Below are positions 13,522 to 28,275 of a stretch of 33,650 nucleotides of DNA, piece by piece. Both the position numbers and the translations under genes were made by a program. Under the pieces are notes generated by a model, which had not been told where the DNA came from, ran no database searches, and saw only the letters and a list, made by a program, of their open reading frames with translations. Origin of the DNA: Mariprofundaceae bacterium. GTDB lineage: Bacteria > Pseudomonadota > Zetaproteobacteria > Mariprofundales > Mariprofundaceae. Numbering within the stretch: position 1 is the stretch's first letter; the number at the start of each line of letters is the position of its first letter. The stretch is from positions 1-33,650 of the forward strand of contig JALUXN010000281.1 in NCBI GenBank assembly GCA_027018975.1, read 5' to 3'.

Positions 13522-14940
13522 CTACTTGACGCGGCCGTAATTGTCCTCGAAGCGTTCGATATCATCTTCGCCTAGATAGTCGCCGACCTGTACCTCGATC
13601 AGTTGCAGCGTGACTTTGCCACGGTTCTCCAATCGGTGGGTTTCACCGATGGGGATGTAGGCGCTGCCGTTTTTTGGCACGGTTTTGATCATTTCACCAC
13701 AGGTGACTGTCGCAGTGCCGGCGACGACCACCCAGTGTTCGGAGCGGTGTTGGTGTGCCTGCAGGCTGAGTCGGGCGCCCGGCTCTACTTCGATGCGTTT
13801 GAGCTTGTAGCCCTGATTGTGATCTTCCAGCACCGTGTAGCTGCCCCATGGGCGGCGCACGGTGACATGTTCGAGGTGATAGCTGCTGTCGCCATCGGAT
13901 TTGAGCGCTTGGACAATTTCACGTACCCGCTGACTCTCGCCTGTTTTGCAGAGCAGGATCGCATCGGGCGTCTCGACGGCAATGATACCGTCCAGTCCAA
14001 CAGCGGCGATCAGGCTCTTTTCGCTGCGTAGCAGAGAATTTTTGCAGTCGATCGCCAGGACATTGCCGATGATCTCATTCTCATTTTCGTCCCGCACGCC
14101 GATTTCGCGTACCGCATCCCAACTGCCGACATCCGACCAGCCAATATCGGCCGCCACCAGCGAGACAATCTCCGAGCGCTCCATGACACCGTAATCGATC
14201 GAAATATCCGGCATCAGATGGAACTGTTCACGCAACACCTCCTGCCAGAGTTCGCCGTTATTCCAGCGTTGACGCATCGCTTCCAGTTGCTGCCACAGTT
14301 CCGGCAGATAGCGTTTGATCTCAGCGAGAATCACGGATGCTTTCCAGACAAACATCCCGGAGTTCCAGAAATAACCACCCTCATCCAGCATCCGTTTGGC
14401 TGTTGGCAGATCCGGCTTCTCCACAAAGCGGATCACCGGATGTACATCACCATCACCCACTTCGGCTTGAATGTAGCCAAAGCCGGTTTCCGGATGCTCC
14501 GGCACGATACCGAAGGTCACCAGCCGCCCCTGCTCCGCCTCCTGCGCGGCAATTCGCAGGCAGTGCTGAAATGCCTGCTTCTGCGTCACCACATGGTCGG
14601 CCGGTAGTACCACCATGGTCGGATCATGCACATCGCTTATGTCTTGCAGCAGCGCTGCGGCAATGGCCACCGCCGGCGCTGTATTGCGGCCGCACGGCTC
14701 GAGGATGGTATTCAAACCATCGAGTTCAGAGAACGCTTCGCCTGTGGCGTGTGCCTCGCCGGTCACCACCCAGACATGTTCTGGTGCCACCGTCGGGCTC
14801 AGGCGGTCGATCGTCGCACCGAGCATACTCTGTTCACCGTTGAGGCAGAGAAACTGTTTGGGCAACTGTTGACGGGAGAGTGGCCATAATCGTGAACCGG
14901 AGCCTCCGGCCAACACGACGGCATAGATAGATTCAGACAT
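13522..14940 (-). CDS. manC: Mannose-1-phosphate guanylyltransferase/mannose-6-phosphate isomerase (type II)
   Basis: AVVLAGGSGSRLWPLSRQQLPKQFLCL pyrophosphorylase motif; FVEKPD; C-terminal PMI-like cupin (RPWGSYTVLED, LQAHQHRSEHWVVVAGTA). Confidence 0.95.
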   Translation of the reverse strand: MSESIYAVVLAGGSGSRLWPLSRQQLPKQFLCLNGEQSMLGATIDRLSPTVAPEHVWVVTGEAHATGEAFSELDGLNTILEPCGRNTAPAVAIAAALLQDISDVHDPTMVVLPADHVVTQKQAFQHCLRIAAQEAEQGRLVTFGIVPEHPETGFGYIQAEVGDGDVHPVIRFVEKPDLPTAKRMLDEGGYFWNSGMFVWKASVILAEIKRYLPELWQQLEAMRQRWNNGELWQEVLREQFHLMPDISIDYGVMERSEIVSLVAADIGWSDVGSWDAVREIGVRDENENEIIGNVLAIDCKNSLLRSEKSLIAAVGLDGIIAVETPDAILLCKTGESQRVREIVQALKSDGDSSYHLEHVTVRRPWGSYTVLEDHNQGYKLKRIEVEPGARLSLQAHQHRSEHWVVVAGTATVTCGEMIKTVPKNGSAYIPIGETHRLENRGKVTLQLIEVQVGDYLGEDDIERFEDNYGRVK

Positions 14941-14970
14941 AAACTGCTCCTTGGGCATGGGTAAATTGCA

Positions 14971-16248
14971 TCAGCTGTTCAACTGCTCTGTCTTGGTTTG
15001 AAACTCCCGGCTGAGGCGGAATGTGATCAGCAGCCAGATCAAACAGAGACTGACATTCACACCGACGAGAAAGGTGGTGCTCTTGGCCAGCACCGACATC
15101 ACCAGGAAAATCAGCCCGCCCTGAATCAGATCACCAAAGCGGGTGAAGAAGGTGTTCACCGCCAGCATCCCCTCATAGCGTGTGAAGCGATCCAGCGGTA
15201 GGAAGAGGATCTGTTTGGTGGTGTTGGCTACCGAATAGTCGATACTGTTATCGGCTACCTTGACAATGGCAAACCATGCCAGCACCGGCCAGGCCAGCAC
15301 GGAGAAATACATCACCAGATTGATCGCCGCCAGGCTGATCAATGTGCCGCCCACGCCGATCCAGCGATAGAGCGGGCGCACCAGAAAGGCTTGGAGCAGC
15401 AGGGTGGCGATATTCACGAAGAGATAGAAGGTGGAATAAAACTCGCCGATCTGCTCGCCGCTTTTCTCCGCGACAACAAAATCGGCCAGCACAAACTCAC
15501 CGGTGGAGTTGATCAGATTCAGCATCACGACCGAAGCGGCGATCCAGCGTAGATAGGGGAGCGCGACGACTTTTTTCAAACCACCCAGCAGATGTTCGAT
15601 GGTATCATCCGCCTGTTCATCGTGATGATCATCGCGTAGTTGATCTTTGCTGCGCGGCATCACTACCGCGACCAGCAGCATTCCCATCGCCACAATCATC
15701 AGGCCGTAGGCGCCCAGTTCATGATAGAGGCCTTTGGCGACCATCGAGCCGATCATCGCGCCCGAAGAGCCTCCGATGGCGATGTAGGAGGTAAGCCGCG
15801 TCCCCTTCTCCACGCCGTGGTAGTCGCTGACCAGCGTCCAGAATTGCGACACCTGCAGCACAGAGAAGATGCCGAGCCAGACAAAAAACATCACTCCGAT
15901 ATTCAGCCCCATCTGCCCCAATACGTAGAAGAGCACGATATTGCTGATCAAAAACAGCGTAACCACCTGAAACAGCCGATCGCCGTGCACATGCCGAATC
16001 ACCCGGCTGTAGAAGGGTACGATCATCAGTAGAATCGCCGCCTGCCCGGTCAGGGCATAACTGCGCACCAGCGCGCTGCCGCTGGCGAGTACCAGTTCCT
16101 CGCGCACCGGCTTCATCAGGTAGTAGGCGAAGAGAATCAGGAACAGACGGATTGCAAATAGCAGCGTCGCCTGCCCTTCGGCGCTGCGCAGATCGAGCCA
16201 GCACTGCGCCAGTTGCTGCTTGATTTTTGGCAACATGCCCTGCTCCAT
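14971..16248 (-). CDS. ATP/ADP translocase-like (NTT/Npt-type) MFS carrier
   Basis: FAYYLMKPVREELVLASGSALVRSY, FWTLVSDYHGVEKGTRLTSYIAIGGSSGAMIGS, SIDYSVANTTKQILFLPLDRFTRYEGMLAVNTFFTRFGDLIQGG resemble the Npt1/Npt2 family; about 10-12 TM. Confidence 0.8.
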   Translation of the reverse strand: MEQGMLPKIKQQLAQCWLDLRSAEGQATLLFAIRLFLILFAYYLMKPVREELVLASGSALVRSYALTGQAAILLMIVPFYSRVIRHVHGDRLFQVVTLFLISNIVLFYVLGQMGLNIGVMFFVWLGIFSVLQVSQFWTLVSDYHGVEKGTRLTSYIAIGGSSGAMIGSMVAKGLYHELGAYGLMIVAMGMLLVAVVMPRSKDQLRDDHHDEQADDTIEHLLGGLKKVVALPYLRWIAASVVMLNLINSTGEFVLADFVVAEKSGEQIGEFYSTFYLFVNIATLLLQAFLVRPLYRWIGVGGTLISLAAINLVMYFSVLAWPVLAWFAIVKVADNSIDYSVANTTKQILFLPLDRFTRYEGMLAVNTFFTRFGDLIQGGLIFLVMSVLAKSTTFLVGVNVSLCLIWLLITFRLSREFQTKTEQLNS

Positions 16249-16256
16249 CGTATCCC

Positions 16257-18788
16257 CTAGCGCCGCAGCGGTGCGCGCCAGCCCTGTGTCTCAGCTGTCG
16301 AACAGGCGACGAAGCGGTAGATGTGGCCGGCAGTTAGATTGAGATTGCGTGCGGTGAGGGTGTTGGCGCGTGTATTGACCTCGGTGACCAGCGGTGTCCA
16401 GGCGTTGTCCGAATAGGCCCAGAGGTTGATCTGATGTTCATCCTTGATCAGACCGAGCTCGTTGGCCATGCCGTTTTCATCGAAATAGTCGAAGGTGACA
16501 TCGGTGACGATATTGGCCGAGGGGATGCGTGAAAAGAGAATCCACGAACGCTGGATACACTGGCGCGGATCGACATCCTCCATCAGGAACATCGGTGCCA
16601 TGAACGGCTCCGCCTCGGCCTGGAAATCGGCCAAGGTGTATTCCGATTTGAAATTGAGCAGGGCAATCAGATAACCCCAACCCGGATCGCGAATCACCAT
16701 CGAGCGGGTCGGGCTGGCGGCTGCCACGTGGCCGCTAAATGCTTCGCTCAACAGTTTGGCTTCTGCCTCGGGTGCGGTCAGCGGTTGCTGTTTCCCTTTG
16801 AGTGCGTCCTGCATGCGTTGCACCCGCGGATCGATCACCGGTTCTATTGTGATTTTGGAGCCGTGACCGGTGAATTGATCCTTGCCCTGCACGTAATCCA
16901 GATACTCCTGCATCTGCGGCATGTCGCGATACGACCACGGCAGGCGTCCGAAGAACTTGGTATCGAGGAAATAGGGGCGGGCAATGCCGTAGTAGGCCAG
17001 TGCTTGATACTGCGCGATAAACGACTGCTCGGAGCGGCTGCCATATTTCTGACTCTGTTGGAATGGCGTGAGCCGGTGCGCCAGATGGCGAACGCGAGCC
17101 TGCATGACGGCCGGTGAGAACCAGCCGAAGGTGCGCGCTCTGGGCTGCCGCCATGCGTCATCATGTCGCTGTTTGCCGATGAGGTGGGCAATCTTGGCGT
17201 CGAATTTCGCCTTCAGCCGCTTGTTGAGAAATACCTTGGCCTTGAGCGGGTTGAAGACACCCAGATCGGGGGTGTAGTAGTACTGGAAGCGGTCGTTGAA
17301 GATGGTGGCCGGATATTTGACAAAGGGATCGTAGGTCTGGCCGAAGGTGAGATCGTAATCCCAAGGGATGATGCGCCACTTGCCGGTGGTGCCGGATTTC
17401 ACCAAAAAGTAGTTTTTATTGTAGGTGTCGCCCTGACTGACCAGCGTATTGGCGACCAGCCAGTTGATCAGAGAATCATCATCGAAATATTTGGCGAGGA
17501 ACTGGTCGAACTGTTCAACCGGCGTATCGGAGACCGCCTTAATCAGCGTTTTCAGGCTCGATTTGTCTTCCTGATCCTGGGTGAATTTAAACCAGCACTC
17601 ATCCACATCCGAGGCGTGTTTGAAGTCACCGCAGTACATCGCGTCATTGGGCTGATAAAACTCCGCCTGCTTGCCGTAGCCGCGCCGTTCAAGGAAGTGT
17701 TTGCCGAGCCACTCGATATAGAAATAGACACCGATAAATTCACCGTTGATGCTCAGCCGGACATAGTGGGTATCCGGCACGGTCATGCCCATATCCCGCA
17801 TCAGCTCCCAGGTGATCCATTCGCGCATCATGGCGCCATCCGACCCCATCGAGCGCAGGGAGATCTTGTGATAGCCGTGCCATTTGCCGTTGAGCACCTT
17901 CAGAATCAGCGCCTTCTTGTGCAGTGAGCGTGTTGAGCTGCCGTAGGATTTGATGCGGCCGGTAAGCTGTGGTTCGCCATCGATGGAGAACTGCGCCGGG
18001 AACGAGGATTTATCGTTGGGGTCTTTCAAGAACAGAATGCGTGCATCGCGTTGATCCATCTGCACATCGATATCCTGCATCTGAACCTCGCGTGTCGCGC
18101 GATGCATCGCTTCCGGCGAGTAGTGGAAATAGTGGTCATCAACCAGCCAGGCATAATCACCATCGGCGTAATCGGCTTCCCGCCAGGTGGTGGCTGGCGG
18201 TGCATCGGCCACCGGCGAGGGCTCAACCGGCGGTACATAGACCGGATCCGCTTCCGGTACAACCACATCCGGCGGCATGGCATTGTTGCCTTGATCGCCA
18301 GCCATGGTGTCGGCAACGGGCGTATCACTGGCGGCTGTTTTGAACCGGCCAGCCTCGTTGGCAAACAGCAAGCCGTGCAGGCCGGCGCGCTGAATGAGCG
18401 GTGCCAGTTCACGTTGGCGTTGATGGATGTCCGCAGACGTCGGCAATGCACTCAAGACAAAATAGAGCGTGCGCCCGCGATGCTGATGGCGAACAATAAA
18501 GGCCTGTCCCGCTTCACCGACACGGCGCGCCTGACGCAGCGCGCTATCGAGCGGCACATAGCTGCCCAGCACAGCGAAGAGTCGCCGATCCGGCTGCTGA
18601 TTGACGCCATCCTGCCAGCTCTGCAGCGCCGCCGCAGTCTCTCCTGCGCGCAGCTGTTTCCAGCCGCTCTTCACCCACGCCTCACCCGATGCCGCCATGG
18701 TGACTGTTGGCATCATAAGCAGGGCGATACAGCATATTGTGCGCAGGAGGGCTGTTGCGATGTGTGCCTGTATGGTGGTTAATCCCAT
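16257..18788 (-). CDS. Secreted CotH-type kinase with N-terminal SPOR-like region
   Basis: Signal peptide; FSIDGEPQLTGRIKSYGSSTRSLHKKALILKV, SLRSMGSDGAMMREWITWELMRDMGM, GVYFYIEWLGKHFLERRGYG, WRIIPWDYDLTFGQ are CotH hallmarks. The N-terminal stretch LFAVLGSYVPLDSALRQARRVGEAGQAFIVRHQHRGRTLYFVLSALPTSADIHQ looks SPOR-like. Confidence 0.85.
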   Translation of the reverse strand: MGLTTIQAHIATALLRTICCIALLMMPTVTMAASGEAWVKSGWKQLRAGETAAALQSWQDGVNQQPDRRLFAVLGSYVPLDSALRQARRVGEAGQAFIVRHQHRGRTLYFVLSALPTSADIHQRQRELAPLIQRAGLHGLLFANEAGRFKTAASDTPVADTMAGDQGNNAMPPDVVVPEADPVYVPPVEPSPVADAPPATTWREADYADGDYAWLVDDHYFHYSPEAMHRATREVQMQDIDVQMDQRDARILFLKDPNDKSSFPAQFSIDGEPQLTGRIKSYGSSTRSLHKKALILKVLNGKWHGYHKISLRSMGSDGAMMREWITWELMRDMGMTVPDTHYVRLSINGEFIGVYFYIEWLGKHFLERRGYGKQAEFYQPNDAMYCGDFKHASDVDECWFKFTQDQEDKSSLKTLIKAVSDTPVEQFDQFLAKYFDDDSLINWLVANTLVSQGDTYNKNYFLVKSGTTGKWRIIPWDYDLTFGQTYDPFVKYPATIFNDRFQYYYTPDLGVFNPLKAKVFLNKRLKAKFDAKIAHLIGKQRHDDAWRQPRARTFGWFSPAVMQARVRHLAHRLTPFQQSQKYGSRSEQSFIAQYQALAYYGIARPYFLDTKFFGRLPWSYRDMPQMQEYLDYVQGKDQFTGHGSKITIEPVIDPRVQRMQDALKGKQQPLTAPEAEAKLLSEAFSGHVAAASPTRSMVIRDPGWGYLIALLNFKSEYTLADFQAEAEPFMAPMFLMEDVDPRQCIQRSWILFSRIPSANIVTDVTFDYFDENGMANELGLIKDEHQINLWAYSDNAWTPLVTEVNTRANTLTARNLNLTAGHIYRFVACSTAETQGWRAPLRR

Positions 18789-19639
18789 TTGTAGGTGACT
18801 CCGAGACTGGTGTACCAGCTGGCGCTGGTGTTGCGCCCCCAGATGGTGTCGCCGATGGTTGCGTGACCGCTGATGCTTGGGCTGAAGGTGTGTTGCAAGC
18901 TGGCGTAGGGGACAAAGGCATCACTGTTGCCGGGGAAACGGTGGCCGCCCAGCGGGGTCGGTTCGGGGCGATAATCATGCATCGACAAGCGCAGCGCCGC
19001 ACCGGCCACAAAGCGGTTCAGCCCCCCCTCGTCGAGGCGGGCGGACCATTTTGCATAGCTGCGCCACTGGGTAGCAGGAAAACCGAACCAGTACTGAATG
19101 CCGGTGCCGAACTCCCAATAGGTCGGCTTCTGCTCCTCCCAGCCGGTATTCTGCGTGGACCACGCAATGCCGCCCCACAGACCGAGCACACCGAAGCCGA
19201 GGCGGTTGGGTAAATGACTGTCATAGCCGGTCGGGATGGTGAGCGAGACCTCCCAAGTGCGGCCGTTGCGGGTCTCATCCAAGCGGCCGCGCACGCCGAA
19301 TACCGCGTTGCCGAGACCGGAGATCGTCTGTGTGGTGGTGCAGCTGCGGTGAATCAGTGTCGTATTGGCGAAGAAGTTGTAGTAGTAGGAGTAGCCGTAG
19401 GTGTAGCCATGGCTCCAATAGATGTCGCGTGAGCGGCCGCAGAGTTGCGCCACCCGATGGCGGCTGCGGTTGAAGAAGTCTTTGGCGCTGGCGAAGGTGA
19501 TGCCGGTGGAGTACTCACTCTCACCTTCAGCAATCATAAAAGCACCGGCATCTGCACGCGGCGCGCCGTTGATCAACATCATCAATAACAGAATCGCAAA
19601 CAGCAGGCTGCCCCGCCATGGATGACTTTTCTTTACCAT
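18779..19639 (-). CDS. Predicted outer-membrane beta-barrel protein of unknown family
   Basis: Signal peptide (MVKKSHPWRGSLLFAILLLMMLINGAPRADA); alternating aromatic/polar strands, Gly/Tyr/Trp rich, C-terminal strand WYTSLGVTYKWD; overlaps the CotH gene start by 10 nt. Confidence 0.65.
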   Translation of the reverse strand: MVKKSHPWRGSLLFAILLLMMLINGAPRADAGAFMIAEGESEYSTGITFASAKDFFNRSRHRVAQLCGRSRDIYWSHGYTYGYSYYYNFFANTTLIHRSCTTTQTISGLGNAVFGVRGRLDETRNGRTWEVSLTIPTGYDSHLPNRLGFGVLGLWGGIAWSTQNTGWEEQKPTYWEFGTGIQYWFGFPATQWRSYAKWSARLDEGGLNRFVAGAALRLSMHDYRPEPTPLGGHRFPGNSDAFVPYASLQHTFSPSISGHATIGDTIWGRNTSASWYTSLGVTYKWD

Positions 19640-19646
19640 ACTACTC

Positions 19647-20684
19647 CTATCTCTGCCACTGCTGCCGCACCACCCGTTCGGCCGGCTTGTGCTGTAGCGT
19701 GTAATCCACATCTGACGTGCCGCCGGCATGGGGATCGCTCATCCAGTTCCAGATGAACACACCGCGAATGCGGGGTGTATCCTGCAGCGCTTGCAGCCAA
19801 GCGGCGATGGCATCTTGTTGCAGCTGCAGATCCGGCGCGCGTTGCGACAGATCGTGCCAGTCCCACGGCCGGCTGCTGGCACCTTGCGCTGAGGGGATGC
19901 CGATCTCCAACAGCCAGAGCGGTTGATGCATTCCCTGCACAGCTTGGTTCAAACGTTGCAGGTTCCGGCGCACAGATGCAAGCATCTCCTCAGGGTTGCC
20001 GCTGGCTCCCATGTTCGGATAAAAGGAGAGCGCAATCAGATCCAGCTGATCCCAGTAAGGGAATGCCTCTACACCTTCGACATTGTGTGCCGTGTAGGTC
20101 AGCAAACCACGATATGTGGCGCGCAGTTGTTGAATCAGCTGCGGCCAGTGGCGGCTTTGTGCCATGCCCTGCAGTTCGGTGCCGATGACCAATGCTTCCA
20201 CGCCCATCTGCCGGGCAAGTTGCGCGTAGTGCAGCATGGCGCGACTGTAGTGCGCGAACCATGTGGATTCCTGAGCGTGATCGTGAAAGGCGAGTTCGCC
20301 CGCCCAGTGGTCGCGAATCAATACCTGAGGTTTGAGTACAACGCTCAATCCCGCCGCGTGAGCATCACGGATCGCCGCGCTCAATTGCGCCTCGGTGACA
20401 TGGTTGCCTATGTGAATATGGGTGTCATGCAGATGATCCTGAACGAGGAAAGGAATCAGCGCCACACTGTTTGCTCCTGTCGCGGCCAGCTGTTGTAGCG
20501 AACGTTTCGCTTCGACACTGCCCCAGGGCGCCTGCGCACTCTGCAGCGCATTAAAACCATGCCACACGGCATCAATGCCGAGCGAAGCGCGATGCGCAGC
20601 CTGCTGATGCATGTCGATCCCCCTCTGTTCCCCGCAGCTGCTAAGGAGCAGGAGTGCTGAGCAGCAGATGATCAGGCGCTTCAC
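19647..20684 (-). CDS. Lipoprotein glycoside hydrolase, GH113-like (beta-mannanase-type TIM barrel)
   Basis: Lipobox LLLLSSCG; VIGTELQGMAQ (candidate acid/base Glu), LLTYTAHN, DLIALSFYP, PLWLLEIGIPS (candidate nucleophile Glu). Confidence 0.7.
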   Translation of the reverse strand: MKRLIICCSALLLLSSCGEQRGIDMHQQAAHRASLGIDAVWHGFNALQSAQAPWGSVEAKRSLQQLAATGANSVALIPFLVQDHLHDTHIHIGNHVTEAQLSAAIRDAHAAGLSVVLKPQVLIRDHWAGELAFHDHAQESTWFAHYSRAMLHYAQLARQMGVEALVIGTELQGMAQSRHWPQLIQQLRATYRGLLTYTAHNVEGVEAFPYWDQLDLIALSFYPNMGASGNPEEMLASVRRNLQRLNQAVQGMHQPLWLLEIGIPSAQGASSRPWDWHDLSQRAPDLQLQQDAIAAWLQALQDTPRIRGVFIWNWMSDPHAGGTSDVDYTLQHKPAERVVRQQWQR

Positions 20685-22180
20685 AGGCGTCTGTACACGC
20701 GCCAGGTGACGCCGCTATAGACCAGACGAAAGCCCGGCATGCCGTGCGCATAGAGGTTGGGATAGTGAATGGAGATATGATCGAGTTTGCCGGCCGGCGA
20801 GGTCGGATCGGCAACTACAATCTGGTCGATATCGGGAATGGCACGACCCAGCGCCAGTTTGAAGCGGTCGGTATAGGAGAGGTAGAGCCCTTTGGCATCA
20901 CCGCGCGCCACAAGCACCTTATAGGCGCTGTTTTCATCAATCATGGTCGGCAGGCGGTGTGTGGCGAGCCAGCGCCCGAGCCGCAACGCACCATCCTGAT
21001 CGGCAATCAGTACACGGTCGGCACGGAATGCCTGCAGCCACTGCTGCATCGCCGGATTGGCAGTGCTGGTGAACACCCACCAACCACCAGCCAGACTGAT
21101 CACAAGCATGGCGACGACACGCCAGTAGCTGCGTGTATGGGAGAGGTCGATAAAGGTCAGCTCAGCAAAGATACTGGCACTGATCAATACCAGGATCTCG
21201 ATGGGATGGCGTAGATAAAATTGATCGGTCGCCAAGGCGATCGCCAAAACCGGATGCACAAAGAGCACAAAACTGGCGCGGAAACGGGACTGATCCTGCC
21301 AGGTGGCGAATAGGAAATAGAAAACCGCAGGATAGGCGGCCAGTGCGTAGCCCAGTGCCGGCAGCAGCGTCGCGAAAAAGTGACCGCCGTAGTGCACCAG
21401 CCACGGGTAGTTAAACAGCGTCATGTAGCCGCCAAGGTAGGAGGAGTGCGGATCGTGAATGAAGTGGAAGAAGTCGGAGGCGAAGAGCCAGTTCAGCCAT
21501 GCCCACGAGAATACCGCCATCAGGAAGGGGACGGAGAGGATGAAGTAGATACTCAGCGGCGAGACCATCATCAAGCGGCGTGGTGCCACCACCGCCAGCA
21601 TCGGCAGCAGCGCCACAAAGATGAACACCGCCGAGCCATCGATAAAGAAGAACATCGCCAGAATCAGCGCCAACGAGATATAGGCGTGGATATCATGTTC
21701 GGCGATCATGCTCTGGCAGGCGTGATAGAGCAGATAGAACATCACCATGCTCATCGCCAGTTGGCTGCCGTTGGTGGCTCCCCACAGAAATGCCGGATGT
21801 GCGACCAAGAGCACCATCAACAACATCCGCTTGAAGATCGAGATCGGCTGTGCCCGCATATGGTGCAGAAAGAGCCAGATGAGGATGGCGGCGAAGAGTA
21901 CTGAGACCAGATAGGGGGCGCCGGCGAATTTCATACCCGGTAGATAGTAGAAGGGCACCATCGCATAGAGTGGCAAGTGCGGGTAGAGCAGACTTAGATT
22001 TTCCAGTCGAATATGCTCCGAGCCGAGTACGCCCAGCACCTTCGACCAGCGCACCATCGCGTCATCAAACATAAATCCGTGCGCCAGCAGCCAGGCGGCC
22101 AAGGCACCCAGAGCCATGACCGCCATGATGACAATGAGCACATTTTCGCGACCACGCAGTTGAATCTGACGGGCATCCAT
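20681..22180 (-). CDS. Polytopic membrane protein, possible GT-C-type glycosyltransferase
   Basis: About 11-12 hydrophobic segments plus a soluble C-terminal tail; acidic FDD in the first predicted outer loop (HGFMFDDAMVRW), a GT-C-like trait; 4-nt overlap with the downstream GH113-like gene. Confidence 0.55.
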   Translation of the reverse strand: MDARQIQLRGRENVLIVIMAVMALGALAAWLLAHGFMFDDAMVRWSKVLGVLGSEHIRLENLSLLYPHLPLYAMVPFYYLPGMKFAGAPYLVSVLFAAILIWLFLHHMRAQPISIFKRMLLMVLLVAHPAFLWGATNGSQLAMSMVMFYLLYHACQSMIAEHDIHAYISLALILAMFFFIDGSAVFIFVALLPMLAVVAPRRLMMVSPLSIYFILSVPFLMAVFSWAWLNWLFASDFFHFIHDPHSSYLGGYMTLFNYPWLVHYGGHFFATLLPALGYALAAYPAVFYFLFATWQDQSRFRASFVLFVHPVLAIALATDQFYLRHPIEILVLISASIFAELTFIDLSHTRSYWRVVAMLVISLAGGWWVFTSTANPAMQQWLQAFRADRVLIADQDGALRLGRWLATHRLPTMIDENSAYKVLVARGDAKGLYLSYTDRFKLALGRAIPDIDQIVVADPTSPAGKLDHISIHYPNLYAHGMPGFRLVYSGVTWRVYRRL

Positions 22181-22183
22181 GGC

Positions 22184-24256
22184 CTAGCTGCCCTTTGCCT
22201 CAGGTGCGCTGCCCTGTTCACCGCTCAGGGAGTGCTCATCGACTTCACTGGTCACCTGATAGGTGGTCAAGCCGTGGTTGGTCTTCTCCCAGTAGAACGG
22301 ATTGAAAATCAGCTGCCACAGCCCTTTGAACGCCGCCCATGACATTAAAAACCAGTAACCGGGCACAGTCAGCGCCCACGGCATCAGTTTGTAGTAGTGG
22401 CGCTTGAAGCCGCTGAGCATGAATAGCTGGATCAAAAAGGCGTTGCCCACCAGCAGGTTGATCAGATTGATATAGAGCAGTGAAGCGGGGTAGATGGCGT
22501 TGAAGACGGTGGTTTGGGTGATCAGCCAGACGATGAAGATGGCGATCAGAAACGGCATCAGCAGCACACTGAGAATGGTGCCACCGATAAAGAACTGGAA
22601 GCCCCAGAAGCCCACATGGCCGAGGGTTTTGTAGAAGTGGAGTGGTCGGCGCATATGCACCAGATAGGTCTGCATGTATCCCTTGAGCCAGCGTGAACGT
22701 TGGCGGATCCAGTTGTGCACCTCGTTGTTGGCCTCTTCATAGGTGGTCGAATTGACCACGCCGACGCGGTAGTTGCGCTGGGTCAGGCGCACGCCCAAGT
22801 CACAATCTTCTGTTACATTGTACGGATCCCAGCCCTGCAATTCACGCAGTACTTTGGTTTTGAAGTGGTTGGATGTGCCGCCGAGCGGAATGGGGATTTT
22901 CAGTGCATCGAGCGCCGGCAGATAGAAGTCGAACCAGAGCGAATACTCCATGGTAAACATGCGGGTCAGCCAGTTCTCACTCACATTGAAGTAGTTCAGC
23001 CGCGCTTGGATCACCGCCGTATTGGGTGATGACTTGCGGAAAGCCGCAACCACCTTTTTCAGCTGGTCGGCCTCGGGCGCATCCTCACCATCGTAGATGG
23101 TAGCCAGCTCACCGCGCGCAAAATTGAGCGCATAGTTGCACGCTTTCGGCTTGGTTTTGGGCAGCGACGGTGGCACGCGGATAATCTCGAACATCCCTTC
23201 AAGGGCGAGGCTCTTGGCGGTTTCGATGGTCTCCTCATCGTCCTCTTCGAGGATAATTTTGATGTCGAGCTTGGACATCGGGTAATCGAGGTTGCGCAGC
23301 GCTTGCGCCAAATGCGGTAGCGTCTCCGCTTCCTTATACATCGGCACCAGCACCGTATAGGTCGGCAGATCCGCCGCCTTGAGATTGGCCACCTCCTCAT
23401 CGGTGACGTAGTTGTCGAAGCGTTTATCGCCGCCCACCCAAGTCAGCAGTGCGCGCAGGCCGAAGTTGAATAGCAGAAAGACCGAGATAAAGGCGTTGAT
23501 GACAATCAGTGTGTTGACCGGCTCGAAGGCCATGGCCAGCAGGGTGATGCTCATGACCACGAAGGCAAAAATCAGCTGCGGCACGGTGAACACCGTGCTG
23601 GCGGAGTATTCCGGTTGGCGCTTGCGCAGCTCATGCACAGATTTTTCACTGAAGAAGGCGTCGCCATATTTTTGCAACGTCCAGACGATATCGAATTTGG
23701 AGGTGACTACGAAGTCGATCGGCCCGTCAATCACCTGCTCGGCAGCTACCATGATCTCGCCATCGAGATCGGCAACCGCCACCTTGGTCAGCCCGTGCTC
23801 CTTTCGCCATGGTAGAAAGAGCTGTTCCAGATAGGCATCATAATGGTTCTCATCAAGCAGCCCCTCATCCGGCGGCTCATCGATCAAATTGACAAAGGGT
23901 TTGTCGAAATGGGTGGCCATCACCTGATAGAAGAGGAAGGGGCGCACCCATCCCTTGGCCAGGATAATATCACCGACGCGGGTGCCCCACTCCCGCTGCA
24001 GCTGGAGCGCCTCCATCAAGCGCTCTTCGGAGAGCAGCCCCCGCTCCACCAGCAGATCACCGATCCGCCCTTTGCGGAAATGGTCGGTCAGCGCGCTGTA
24101 AAATTCGCTGGCGGTGATCCACCCCTGCGCGAGGATCACTTCACCGATCCGCTGTCCGCGCTCCCGCTGTAGCTTCAGTGCTTCCTGCAGCTGCGATTCG
24201 GTGATCAGGCCGTGATCCACCAGCACATCGCCAATACGCGGCAGTGCTTGACTCAT
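22184..24256 (-). CDS. Membrane GT2 polysaccharide synthase with two N-terminal MshEN (c-di-GMP-binding type) modules
   Basis: N-terminus: RIGDVLVDHGLITESQLQEALKLQRERGQRIGEVILAQGWITASEF, then RIGDLLVERGLLSEERLMEALQLQREWGTRVGDIILAKGWVRPFLF. GT2 core: TVLVPMYKEAETL, ATIYDGEDAPE, NVTEDCDLGVRL, RQRSRWLKGYMQTY (Q/R-x-x-R-W), TM helices on both sides. Confidence 0.9.
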   Translation of the reverse strand: MSQALPRIGDVLVDHGLITESQLQEALKLQRERGQRIGEVILAQGWITASEFYSALTDHFRKGRIGDLLVERGLLSEERLMEALQLQREWGTRVGDIILAKGWVRPFLFYQVMATHFDKPFVNLIDEPPDEGLLDENHYDAYLEQLFLPWRKEHGLTKVAVADLDGEIMVAAEQVIDGPIDFVVTSKFDIVWTLQKYGDAFFSEKSVHELRKRQPEYSASTVFTVPQLIFAFVVMSITLLAMAFEPVNTLIVINAFISVFLLFNFGLRALLTWVGGDKRFDNYVTDEEVANLKAADLPTYTVLVPMYKEAETLPHLAQALRNLDYPMSKLDIKIILEEDDEETIETAKSLALEGMFEIIRVPPSLPKTKPKACNYALNFARGELATIYDGEDAPEADQLKKVVAAFRKSSPNTAVIQARLNYFNVSENWLTRMFTMEYSLWFDFYLPALDALKIPIPLGGTSNHFKTKVLRELQGWDPYNVTEDCDLGVRLTQRNYRVGVVNSTTYEEANNEVHNWIRQRSRWLKGYMQTYLVHMRRPLHFYKTLGHVGFWGFQFFIGGTILSVLLMPFLIAIFIVWLITQTTVFNAIYPASLLYINLINLLVGNAFLIQLFMLSGFKRHYYKLMPWALTVPGYWFLMSWAAFKGLWQLIFNPFYWEKTNHGLTTYQVTSEVDEHSLSGEQGSAPEAKGS

Positions 24257-24295: not shown

Positions 24296-26683
24296 TTATG
24301 GTTTCGGCTCGATCTTATCATCGTCATCCACGTTGAGGTTGGCGTGGTGGACGCGCTGCGATTGCAGGTCAGCCGCTGTCGGCATGGCCATATCCTTATC
24401 CTCCTCTTCGTTGCGTTTGCGGGAGATACGGAAGATGTAGACAATCGCCAGACTCAACAGGAACCAGAGCAGGCCGAGCAGCCAGAAGCGATACTGACCC
24501 AACTCGGCAAACCAATCCTGCGTGTCCGGATAGTAGACTTCAGCCAGTGTCGGCTGCCGGCTGTCGATGCTCAGTAGTACGCCATTACCATCGAGGAAGG
24601 CGACATCGCCTTCCACCAAGCGCAGCGGCTTACGGAAATCACGCTGCTGTGCCGATTCCGGCAGGATCTCCAGTAGTCCAAAGACCGAGGATGCGGAGGC
24701 GATCTCGGCGATGGTGACTTTGGGCAGGTGGTTGATGCTGAAGAAGCTCTGTCCATCCTGATCGCGGATCTCAATTGGTCCCTGATTCAGTCGGATGGGG
24801 GCATCGATGTTGTCCAAGTTGAAGGCTCCGAAAGCGACAAATGGTTGATTCGGGCTCAGCTGGCTTCCTGCCGGGAGAAAATGGATGCGCGAGTAGTCCA
24901 TGGTCACAGAGAGGTTGGCGAGCATCTGTGCAATCATCTGCAGCGCCACATCGGGGTGGCTCAGATATTGATCAGAGATGAAAGTGTCAAAGCCCGAGGA
25001 GAGATATTGCGACAGCAGCGCGAACTTGGTCGGTTTCTTGTCGATACGCTTCACGACCACCGATGTGTCCGGTGTGATCTGGACAAAATCGGTTGGTAGC
25101 GTGCCCTGGCATAGCCCCATTTTGATATCGTGTTGCACGACGAAGCGGAGACCATTGTACTGCTGTTGATAGTCCGCAGGCAGCGGAATGGCATAGTGGT
25201 GCTTGCGGCCATCGTTGGGCAGTCGCGTGGTAAACACCAGCACATCATTGAGGAAGGCATAGAGTTCGTAGGTGGGGTCATCCTGCCAACGCACGGGGGC
25301 GATGATATTCAGCTCCACGGTCTCCAGTCGCGTGCCGGCCGGCAGATCGTGCGGCGCGAGGATGACATCCCACTCGGTCTGTTTGCGGATGTAGTGCGGT
25401 TCGGTGTTCAACTGATAGAGCGGCAGCTGATAGTGGTCACTGGTGCCGTTATCGGGCAGCGAATGGCGTGTGTAGAGCTGATCAGGCTGATTCAGATCGT
25501 AGTGACGGCCGGCAGCCAGAAGTTCCCAGCGGCCATCGAGCAGGTAGAGCGGTTGCACATCGTAGGGATCGGTAATTGCGATGGCAGCCATACCGGCGGA
25601 ACGGATCAGGCTGATGTTGTCAGTCGGAGTGCGAAAAATATCGCCATTTTTCAATGGAGTAAAATGCGTGTGCATCAACTTTCCGCGCTGATTGAGGGCG
25701 TCAACGATCTCATCCTTGCTGGCTACGACCAGGTCGCCCAGCGCCGGCAGATGGGTGATCTCGATCTCTTTATGTGCGGCGCGCAGCAGCTCCATGATCG
25801 ACATGGTTGCCGAGAACTGCTGTTCATCGAGCGGCTCGGCGGGGACCGAAATAACCACGTGCTTTGGCAGCATACGCCATGCATCACGAATCGAGCGCGG
25901 CATGGTGCCGTAGGCGATATCCAGCGCCGTATTCGGCAGGATGGCGAGGAAACCGCCGCCGGCACGCAGATCCAGACACATACTGTCATCGATCACGATG
26001 CCTGCTTCGATCGTCACCTTCAGGGTGTCGCCGGTAAAGGTCTCCGCCGGTAGTACAATGGCGATTTCGTGACGCATGTTGTCCGCCACAAGTCGGGTCT
26101 GCGCCAGCGGCACGTCGTTGACGTAGATGCTGACATTGGAGATGGGCAACAGCATTTTGGATGCGCGGTAGTTCAGCCGGAAGACACCGCCGCGGATGCG
26201 TGAATCCAGTGGTGTTTGAAAGTAGAAATCATGTAGATAGGCAGATTGAGCATGTTTGAAAGTAAAGCCTTTTTTCAGCCCCATCTCTTTGAGCGTGAGG
26301 CTGCGCACAGGTCCCAGCGAACGCAGACTCTCCTGTGCTGTCACAGGATCGACCAAAGCGGCGTGCATGCGCATCCGTGTTGCCCGTTTGCCATGCCGGA
26401 CAACGGCCGATTTCACCCAGCCGTGAACCCCCGACTGTCGTTCGACAACCAGCACCCACCCTTTGCGTCGCTCCATTTCGGTCACTGTTGTCTCCGGTTT
26501 CAGGGTCAACAGCTGTGCGGACGCGACACTGGGGGCGGCATAGATGGCCGCTTTACTGGTGGTGATATGCAGCGGATCACCGATCTTCGCTTCGCCGATA
26601 CCCGCTCCCATTACTGTTGCTAGAATTAGCCACAAGAACTTGATATGTCGATGTTTTATCATTGTAATTGTGTCATCTATCAT
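24296..26683 (-). CDS. BcsB-like periplasmic polysaccharide synthase subunit with N-terminal SH3b-like domain
   Basis: Signal/TM, then SH3b-like (HITTSKAAIYAAPSVASAQLLTLKPETTVTEMERRKGWVLVVERQSGVHGWVKSAVV), BcsB-like body (KGFTFKHAQSAYLHDFYFQTPLDSRIRGGVFRLNYRASKMLLPISNVSIYVNDVPL), C-terminal TM and charged cytoplasmic tail. Start set to MIDDTITMIKH. Confidence 0.82.
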   Translation of the reverse strand: MIDDTITMIKHRHIKFLWLILATVMGAGIGEAKIGDPLHITTSKAAIYAAPSVASAQLLTLKPETTVTEMERRKGWVLVVERQSGVHGWVKSAVVRHGKRATRMRMHAALVDPVTAQESLRSLGPVRSLTLKEMGLKKGFTFKHAQSAYLHDFYFQTPLDSRIRGGVFRLNYRASKMLLPISNVSIYVNDVPLAQTRLVADNMRHEIAIVLPAETFTGDTLKVTIEAGIVIDDSMCLDLRAGGGFLAILPNTALDIAYGTMPRSIRDAWRMLPKHVVISVPAEPLDEQQFSATMSIMELLRAAHKEIEITHLPALGDLVVASKDEIVDALNQRGKLMHTHFTPLKNGDIFRTPTDNISLIRSAGMAAIAITDPYDVQPLYLLDGRWELLAAGRHYDLNQPDQLYTRHSLPDNGTSDHYQLPLYQLNTEPHYIRKQTEWDVILAPHDLPAGTRLETVELNIIAPVRWQDDPTYELYAFLNDVLVFTTRLPNDGRKHHYAIPLPADYQQQYNGLRFVVQHDIKMGLCQGTLPTDFVQITPDTSVVVKRIDKKPTKFALLSQYLSSGFDTFISDQYLSHPDVALQMIAQMLANLSVTMDYSRIHFLPAGSQLSPNQPFVAFGAFNLDNIDAPIRLNQGPIEIRDQDGQSFFSINHLPKVTIAEIASASSVFGLLEILPESAQQRDFRKPLRLVEGDVAFLDGNGVLLSIDSRQPTLAEVYYPDTQDWFAELGQYRFWLLGLLWFLLSLAIVYIFRISRKRNEEEDKDMAMPTAADLQSQRVHHANLNVDDDDKIEPKP

Positions 26684-26721
26684 GATTTTCTCCTCTCCAC
26701 ACGACAGCCGCTGAATGCATG

Positions 26722-28275
26722 TTAACGTGCAACACGGTGCATCCACACAGCATCAAAGGCAACCTCGGCATAGGGTAGATCCATATTGCTGCTGGCATAG
26801 AGCGCCGGCACCAAGTCACCGCGATAGAAGGGGAGCTGCCCGATGCGATGCCAACGGTTGCCACCTAAACTGGCATAGGCTGTGTAGATTTGTCCACTGC
26901 GTTGCAGCTTCAAGCGTACAAAAAATTGGGTTCGCAATGCGCGGCTCTGTGGCGGGTGCCATGCGATGCGTAGCGGTTTACCGATCAGCCGTGGGCGGCC
27001 CCGTTCCATAGCTGTGAAGCGGACGCGCACTACCTGCCGGCAGGGCGTGCTTCGACAGGCGCCGAAGCTGTCGTGTGGGACATTTTCCACCACCAATCCG
27101 AGATAGTTGCGCCGGTCATGGTAGAGGAGCAAGCCAGCTTGCTGTTGCGCTTTGCCATCCTCGCCACTACTGAACTCCGATTTCAGTGATGTTGTCACCC
27201 TGTAACCGCCCTCTCCAGCAGTGCGCTCAAGCAGCAGTAGATTGGCCACATCACCGCGCGGCAATGCACCCGGCTCTGTGTGCAGGATCAGCTTGCCCCC
27301 CTCAAGACGCATGGTGGAGAGGTTCGGGTTGATTATCTGCCAGGCGTCGCTGAGCAGCTGGCCATCGAAATTGTCGCGGAACATGGTTGGTTTCGCACCT
27401 TTATGCTGCGCAGAGTCGCCAAGCGCCGGCAGCTCTCTATCGCGGTCCCACTGATCCTGAAACGTGATCGCCGGCGCGGCGGGTTGCGTGGCTAGCGGAG
27501 TGGCCGGAGAGGGTGTGACGGTTGCTTTGGCTGCGTGCTGTGGGTGCGATGGAGCCACTTTTTCACCGCTTACGGCAGTGGCAACATTTGCCAGCAGCGT
27601 TTGCTCAATGGTGTTGAGCGCTTGCTGCAGCGTTTTTTTACTGTCTGCGGCGTAGTAATGGCCGCCGCCTTGTTCGGCGACACAGCGCAACTGTTCGACC
27701 GCTGCAGGACGCAGATGTAATCCGACGACATCAATGGTGATCTCTGATCCCGATCCGGCGGCCGCATCGCAGGGGTCTCCGGAACAGTTGTCGCGACCAT
27801 CACTGATCAGGACGATGGTGCCACGCCCGCCATGTGCTTTGATGCGTTCGATTGCCAGCTTAATCACCTCGGCCAGTGGTGTCCGCCCTTTGGGCGTAAA
27901 GGCGTGGAGCCGTTTTGAAAACAGCGCGGGGGGGGCGCCGATTGGTGCTAAGAGTTCGAAGTCGTTGCAGTCTGCCTGAATACGATGACCAAAAGCGATC
28001 AGTCCCGGTTTGGCTGTGCTGGGGTAGTTGACAACGCTGTGAGCCAGCAGTTCGCGAACCAGTGTGATCTTGGCTGTGCCATCGATTTTATTCCACATGC
28101 TGCTGGAGCCATCTACGACATAGAGTATGGCTGGCGGTGTAGCGATTGGCGCATCGGGCTGTTTGGAAGCTGTTGTCGCATTGGCTTCAGTCATGCTGCT
28201 CAGTGCCCAAAGCATAGCGACAGCCAGTCGCCATATCCCCCTGTTCCATCTCTGCATACAACAACTACGAATCAC
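26722..28275 (-). CDS. Secreted von Willebrand factor A domain protein with C-terminal concanavalin/GH43_C2-like domain
   Basis: MIDAS-like DGSSSMWNKI, TPLAEVI, VLISDGRDNCSGDPC; C-terminal DNFDGQLLSDAWQIINPNLSTMRLEGGKLILHTEPGALPRGDVANLLLLE resembles GH43_C2/LamG-like sandwiches. Confidence 0.8.
   Translation of the reverse strand: MIRSCCMQRWNRGIWRLAVAMLWALSSMTEANATTASKQPDAPIATPPAILYVVDGSSSMWNKIDGTAKITLVRELLAHSVVNYPSTAKPGLIAFGHRIQADCNDFELLAPIGAPPALFSKRLHAFTPKGRTPLAEVIKLAIERIKAHGGRGTIVLISDGRDNCSGDPCDAAAGSGSEITIDVVGLHLRPAAVEQLRCVAEQGGGHYYAADSKKTLQQALNTIEQTLLANVATAVSGEKVAPSHPQHAAKATVTPSPATPLATQPAAPAITFQDQWDRDRELPALGDSAQHKGAKPTMFRDNFDGQLLSDAWQIINPNLSTMRLEGGKLILHTEPGALPRGDVANLLLLERTAGEGGYRVTTSLKSEFSSGEDGKAQQQAGLLLYHDRRNYLGLVVENVPHDSFGACRSTPCRQVVRVRFTAMERGRPRLIGKPLRIAWHPPQSRALRTQFFVRLKLQRSGQIYTAYASLGGNRWHRIGQLPFYRGDLVPALYASSNMDLPYAEVAFDAVWMHRVAR

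Follow-up and report, generated by a model that had tools for sequence, protein, structure and literature searches.

An NTT-superfamily carrier encoded beside the secreted CotH-family protein of the sfz stalk cluster as a candidate partner of extracytoplasmic kinases

The CotH spore-coat kinases of Bacillus are extracytoplasmic enzymes in which D228 and D251 are catalytic; characterised CotH acts on proteins, and the source of its ATP is described as an unsolved problem (PMC7821199). A CotH is also named as sfz6 in the “stalk formation in Zetaproteobacteria” (sfz) cluster of Koeksoy et al. 2021, who list an “ATP-ADP antiporter” and a mannose-phosphate enzyme beside it (PMC8250860). In that study, the antiporter is treated as neighbourhood, and neither a link to CotH nor a role in ATP supply is proposed (PMC8250860). 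The NTT/TLC translocases compared here, AtNTT1 and Chlamydia NTT1, are those of a plastid and an intracellular parasite. Many NTT-like carriers of free-living bacteria are without known function (PMC5381601). Here we analyze a CotH-carrier gene pair in a Mariprofundaceae bacterium (JALUXN010000281.1, positions 1-33,650; this whole stretch of 33,650 nucleotides is called the window), in which the genes concerned lie on the minus strand. Given that the neighbouring antiporter was already listed (PMC8250860), the gene pairing is not new. We found, however, no paper in the open-access literature linking CotH or any other secreted kinase to an NTT carrier, so that, although each gene taken singly belongs to a known type, the repeated association of NTT-type carriers with secreted kinases appears to be undescribed in the literature searched.

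In the window, the CotH gene is transcribed first and the carrier gene after it, with 8 nt between the TAG stop codon of the former and the ATG of the latter, and a Shine-Dalgarno-like AGGGGA that overlaps the CotH stop codon. A first-pass annotation of this DNA had described a secreted CotH encoded 8 nt upstream of an NTT-like carrier on the same strand, and we confirmed both the coordinates and the gap (Table 1). This short gap is particular to the window genome, the other Zetaproteobacteria showing 74-264 nt. Across 78 zetaproteobacterial genomes, CotH is found in 19 and the sfz-type carrier in 21, including all 19 that have CotH; in the two carrier-bearing genomes without a CotH match, the carrier lies at a contig end. 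Wherever the locus is assembled in Zetaproteobacteria, the two genes are neighbours (18 of 18 cases). Moreover, a contig scan recovered the complete sfz1-6-carrier operon from three gammaproteobacterial metagenome-assembled genomes (MAGs) and from one Desulfurivibrionaceae MAG, where the CotH and carrier reading frames overlap by 1-4 nt (loci L087, L088 and L090) and no ManC gene lies alongside. Because the adjacency recurs in all 18 zetaproteobacterial loci and in four loci of other classes, it is not due to chance, and the overlap in the absence of ManC places the carrier in the core of the operon, which argues against a role linked mainly to ManC.

Co-occurrence extends to the Ferriphaselus family, in which CotH and carrier mostly lie at separate loci. 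The carrier is present in 7 of its 158 genomes and a CotH of the sfz6 type (threshold >400 bits) in the same 7, both being absent from the other 151 of 151; such a match has a chance probability of 1/C(158,7) = 2e-12 if the genomes are independent, a value that carries no correction for phylogeny. Since the genomes are not independent and two different carrier clades co-occur with CotH in this family, we count the match as at least two pairings. In five of the seven genomes, a second-type carrier displays K/D/D/K at the four functional positions of AtNTT1, invariant in six sequences, and this is the only carrier in genomes G683, G690, G691 and G706. In G690 (locus L236), its gene overlaps that of ManC by 4 nt and adjoins CotH in opposite orientation. 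Ferriphaselus sp. R-1 encodes an sfz5-sfz6 pair (L220:8289-11317), a second long CotH (L219:7105-11574) and the carrier (L100:9860-11209), all unlinked; the presence of sfz5-sfz6 in this strain is contrary to the report that sfz5, sfz6 and the cassette are missing from Betaproteobacteria (PMC8250860). Taking these lineages together, the pairing is kept in relatives of the window genome: it is universal in Zetaproteobacteria that have CotH, closer still in other classes, and present as co-occurrence in the Ferriphaselus family.

The CotH of the window scores 163 bits against PF08757 (cut-off 23.8) and matches the spore-coat CotH structure PDB 5jd9 with E=2e-17. In the alignment, D454 and D477 are the equivalents of D228 and D251, and N459 that of the metal-binding asparagine; residues 471-483 read WRIIPWDYDLTFG. 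D454, N459 and D477, as well as Lys291/292, are invariant in 13 homologues, so that the catalytic residues are intact and not degenerate. A hydrophobic N-terminal signal segment is present in the window protein and in 13 of 13 homologues, while the window protein is without a long SH3-repeat N-terminus. With a domain score above the cut-off, conserved catalytic residues and an export signal, this protein is predicted to be a secreted kinase. It resembles the Bacillus CotH enzymes (PDB 5jd9) in its domain, its catalytic Asp/Asn/Asp and its predicted action outside the cytoplasm, but differs from them in being a Gram-negative secreted protein encoded in a polysaccharide synthase operon, with a carrier gene adjoining.

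The carrier matches the TLC ATP/ADP transporter family (PF03219) with 40.1 bits, against a cut-off of 21, and MFS_1 weakly; the only PDB entries matched by a profile built from it and its relatives are NTTs of plastids and chlamydiae (9j3j, E=6e-20). Its AlphaFold2 model (pLDDT 92) is closest to ATP-bound AtNTT1 (9j3l, TM 0.80), and the best five PDB fold matches are all NTTs (TM 0.60-0.80). We assign the protein to the NTT/TLC family, with a predicted 12-helix NTT fold. It shares with the translocases AtNTT1 (9j3l) and Chlamydia NTT1 (9j3n) the fold, a full-length profile match, a PF03219 score above the cut-off and the equivalent of E385, whereas its identity to them is 15-18% and, unlike them, it belongs to a free-living bacterium and is encoded beside a secreted kinase.

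The carriers nearest to that of the window, in Acidobacteriota and other phyla, often adjoin secreted kinase-like proteins of two further families. One, which we call HK1, is represented in neither Pfam nor NCBIfam and is common in Acidobacteriota, with about 50 genes there (e.g., L163:5362-7047 on the minus strand, and L091:423-2024). Of 33 sequences, all have the DFG-type Asp, 31 a signal segment, 31 the catalytic Asp and 27 the beta3 Lys, and the predicted structure of HK1 most resembles, with modest scores, CtkA and the Golgi casein kinase Fam20. The other, phosphatase-HipA, consists of a PPP-type phosphatase joined to a HipA_2-like kinase, or of two separate genes. Such secreted phosphatases and HipA_2-like kinases, fused or in tandem, surround an NTT-like carrier at L095:2503-7840, L153:2424-9246, L154, L157 and L158, loci that may possibly represent an extracellular phosphorylation/dephosphorylation unit. 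Profile comparisons of HK1 with CotH and with phosphatase-HipA gave no significant global match, indicating that HK1 is unrelated to either at the sequence level. Using hidden Markov models (HMMs) of both families in a six-frame search around carriers, we found HK1 or phosphatase-HipA within ~2 kb of 14 of the 22 close carriers (>215 bits) of 247 Acidobacteriota genomes and, among 33 distant Pseudomonadota carriers, beside none. As the HMMs were built from carrier neighbours, there is some circularity in the carrier-side rate; this applies less to the controls and to the HK1-side rate, by which a carrier lies no more than ~4 kb from 20 of 50 HK1 genes, with ~0.2 expected as estimated from genome size and carrier number. 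Several of the kinase-carrier pairs overlap by 4-7 nt (L091, L092, L101, L153). Kinase pattern matches at L149, L159 and L165 were rejected, Pfam identifying them as an efflux protein, an esterase and Omp85, respectively. We likewise set aside the distant Pseudomonadota carriers (L102-L134) as support, since they belong to a clade of their own, in which the usual neighbour is an aldo/keto reductase and no kinase is seen. Among these loci, L104-L134 represent a large NTT/MFS-like subfamily of Pseudomonadota whose adjoining aldo/keto reductase carries a Tat-like signal.

These data make a functional link between CotH and the carrier likely. As to its nature, we infer that the carrier belongs to the core of the sfz exopolysaccharide/stalk module and works for CotH, with supply or return of nucleotide as the best single mechanism, a proposal that we regard as having an even chance of being right. 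Under this model, CotH would reach the periplasm or the cell surface by export, a setting in which ATP is scarce; the inner-membrane antiporter would carry nucleotide or a phosphoryl donor out across the membrane and bring back spent nucleotide or phosphate, and CotH would phosphorylate a stalk component, either glycan or protein. Whether this component would be the glycan, the VWA protein or the barrel, and whether it would have any role in iron binding, is speculation. More tentatively, one branch of the NTT superfamily in free-living bacteria might generally supply phosphorylation outside the cytoplasm, its carriers being dedicated partners of at least three unrelated secreted kinase families (CotH, phosphatase-HipA, and the Fam20/HipA-like family that lacks a Pfam entry); it would then account for the origin of the phosphoryl donor used by these kinases. 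In animals, the endoplasmic reticulum ATP/ADP exchanger SLC35B1/AXER serves secretory-pathway kinases such as Fam20. The likeness, a nucleotide carrier feeding kinases across a membrane, is by analogy only, and the transporter family is unrelated to NTT. Overall, the idea of the first-pass annotation that the carrier supplies CotH is partly supported, and it is strengthened by the kinase-carrier pattern in other phyla.

Several observations weigh against this proposal. Among AtNTT1 residues K155, E245, E385 and K527, the window carrier keeps only E385 (as E251): G126 stands in place of E245 and D373 in place of K527, and no lysine aligns to K155, the basic R62 lying one helical turn away. In AtNTT1, ATP binding is lost in the K527E mutant and ADP binding in the K155R mutant (PMC3306366); K527 is considered important for triphosphates, not diphosphates (PMC4256464). 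With E245 and K527 replaced, ATP/ADP exchange by the window carrier cannot be assumed, and with K155 and K527 lost its substrate may be a diphosphate, a monophosphate, phosphate or another compound. By these charged residues and by its score against the TIGR00769 NTP/NDP exchange model (33.7 vs. a cut-off of 387.2 bits), its sequence falls outside the canonical ATP/ADP translocase subfamily. The pairing described in the first-pass annotation is universal in CotH-bearing Zetaproteobacteria, but a carrier is beside none of >40 CotH genes in the 247 Acidobacteriota genomes (among the carriers listed; weak ones could be missed) and beside none in 7 non-zetaproteobacterial Pseudomonadota genomes with CotH. 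We therefore rejected a general CotH-carrier rule, and since most CotH genes have no carrier neighbour, CotH needs no such carrier in general. In second sfz copies (L055 and L058, in genomes G050 and G058), CotH has no carrier next to it, the carrier of these genomes being elsewhere, and 8 of the 22 close Acidobacteriota carriers have no recognised kinase partner.

The zetaproteobacterial carrier, moreover, usually lies nearer to ManC than to CotH, five of seven relatives having a carrier-ManC gap of only -4 to 41 nt, and this tighter spacing, taken alone, would favour a carrier-ManC link. The carrier would then serve the stalk polysaccharide, moving a sugar nucleotide, a sugar phosphate or another building block (e.g., GDP-mannose/GMP), as might also be suggested by the carrier-ManC overlap in L236 and by the loss of the ATP-site lysine K527 from the window carrier. 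We consider this unlikely, because ManC is absent from the gammaproteobacterial and Desulfurivibrionaceae operons in which CotH overlaps the carrier, and related carriers pair with kinases at loci without mannose genes. More doubtful still is an import by the carrier, via its phosphate-binding site, of a small-molecule product of the secreted kinase, or an export of its small-molecule acceptor. The partial retention of the charged NTT site and the adjoining secreted kinase, secreted phosphatase and carrier in L153-L158 and L095 are compatible with it, as is an acidobacterial locus, L152:2983-5839, in which the carrier gene overlaps that of myo-inositol-1-phosphate synthase. However, the inositol case is a single example, the characterised CotH has protein substrates (PMC7821199), and the sfz locus encodes an exported polymer rather than an uptake pathway. 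Finally, co-occurrence could reflect a shared stalk gene set whose members are co-inherited for unrelated reasons, given that every CotH-carrier case found is in an organism with sfz-type genes while other CotH genes are without carriers, but such an absence of direct cooperation is quite improbable, since the carrier family is linked to HK1 and phosphatase-HipA outside any sfz context, a pattern that shared stalk biology cannot explain.

Extracytoplasmic bacterial kinases are known, and the origin of their ATP is unanswered (for CotH, PMC7821199); recurrent kinase-carrier pairs suggest a possible energy supply, and the named pairs from organisms that have been cultured or sequenced (Mariprofundus, Ferriphaselus, Acidobacteriota) make this question directly testable. 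A carrier family of this kind would also provide a first functional hypothesis for many free-living NTT-like carriers and would bring phosphorylation into the proposed machinery of iron-oxidiser stalks.

Table 1. Features of the CotH-carrier locus in the window
Feature	Positions	Strand	Basis
ManC-type mannose-1-phosphate guanylyltransferase, 12 nt downstream of carrier	13522-14958	-	ORF (open reading frame) and sequence
NTT-superfamily (TLC) inner-membrane carrier, 425 aa	14971-16248	-	PF03219, PDB profile match, predicted fold
Intergenic gap CotH/carrier, 8 nt (gggatacg)	16249-16256	-	sequence
CotH-family atypical kinase (sfz6), predicted, 843 aa, signal peptide	16257-18788	-	PF08757, PDB 5jd9 match, residue alignment
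sfz5, predicted outer-membrane/secreted protein, 10-nt overlap with CotH start	18779-19729	-	ORF, synteny
sfz4, GH113-type glycosidase lipoprotein	19647-20684	-	PF22612, 184 bits
sfz3, no assigned function	20681-22180	-	synteny, 41-69% identity to relatives
sfz2, GT2 polymerase with MshEN c-di-GMP (cyclic di-GMP) domain	22184-24256	-	PF13632, NF053729
sfz1, SH3-BcsB-like periplasmic subunit	24296-26746	-	PF03170
VWA-domain protein, operon head	26722-28275	-	PF13519, PF17851; homologue at same place in loci L055, L058

Profile searches and synteny show that sfz1-sfz6 are present in conserved order in the window, in agreement with the described cluster (BcsB-like, MshEN-GT2, unknown, glycoside hydrolase, unknown, CotH, then the antiporter and the mannose-phosphate enzyme; PMC8250860), and the ManC gene after the carrier is also seen by synteny in Mariprofundus relatives. 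Mariprofundus genomes additionally encode a second NTT-like carrier (L061:9655-10887, L062, L064, L102) near a conserved ~980-aa protein with a signal-like N-terminus and no kinase; this paralogue (L061-L065), which is not orthologous to the sfz-type carrier and has no kinase neighbour, was rejected as a further pair. The Mariprofundus genomes G050 and G058 contain additional sfz clusters of another type (L055, L057, L058), with neither carrier nor ManC adjacent. Compared with Mariprofundus ferrooxydans PV-1 (L066), a twisted-stalk former, the window proteins are 65 (sfz2), 49 (sfz3), 45 (sfz4), 27 (sfz5) and 39% (sfz6) identical, so that the cluster as a whole stays below the >50-70% identity to twisted-stalk formers used as a criterion, and they are nearer to the proteins of loci L053 and L054 (47-79%).

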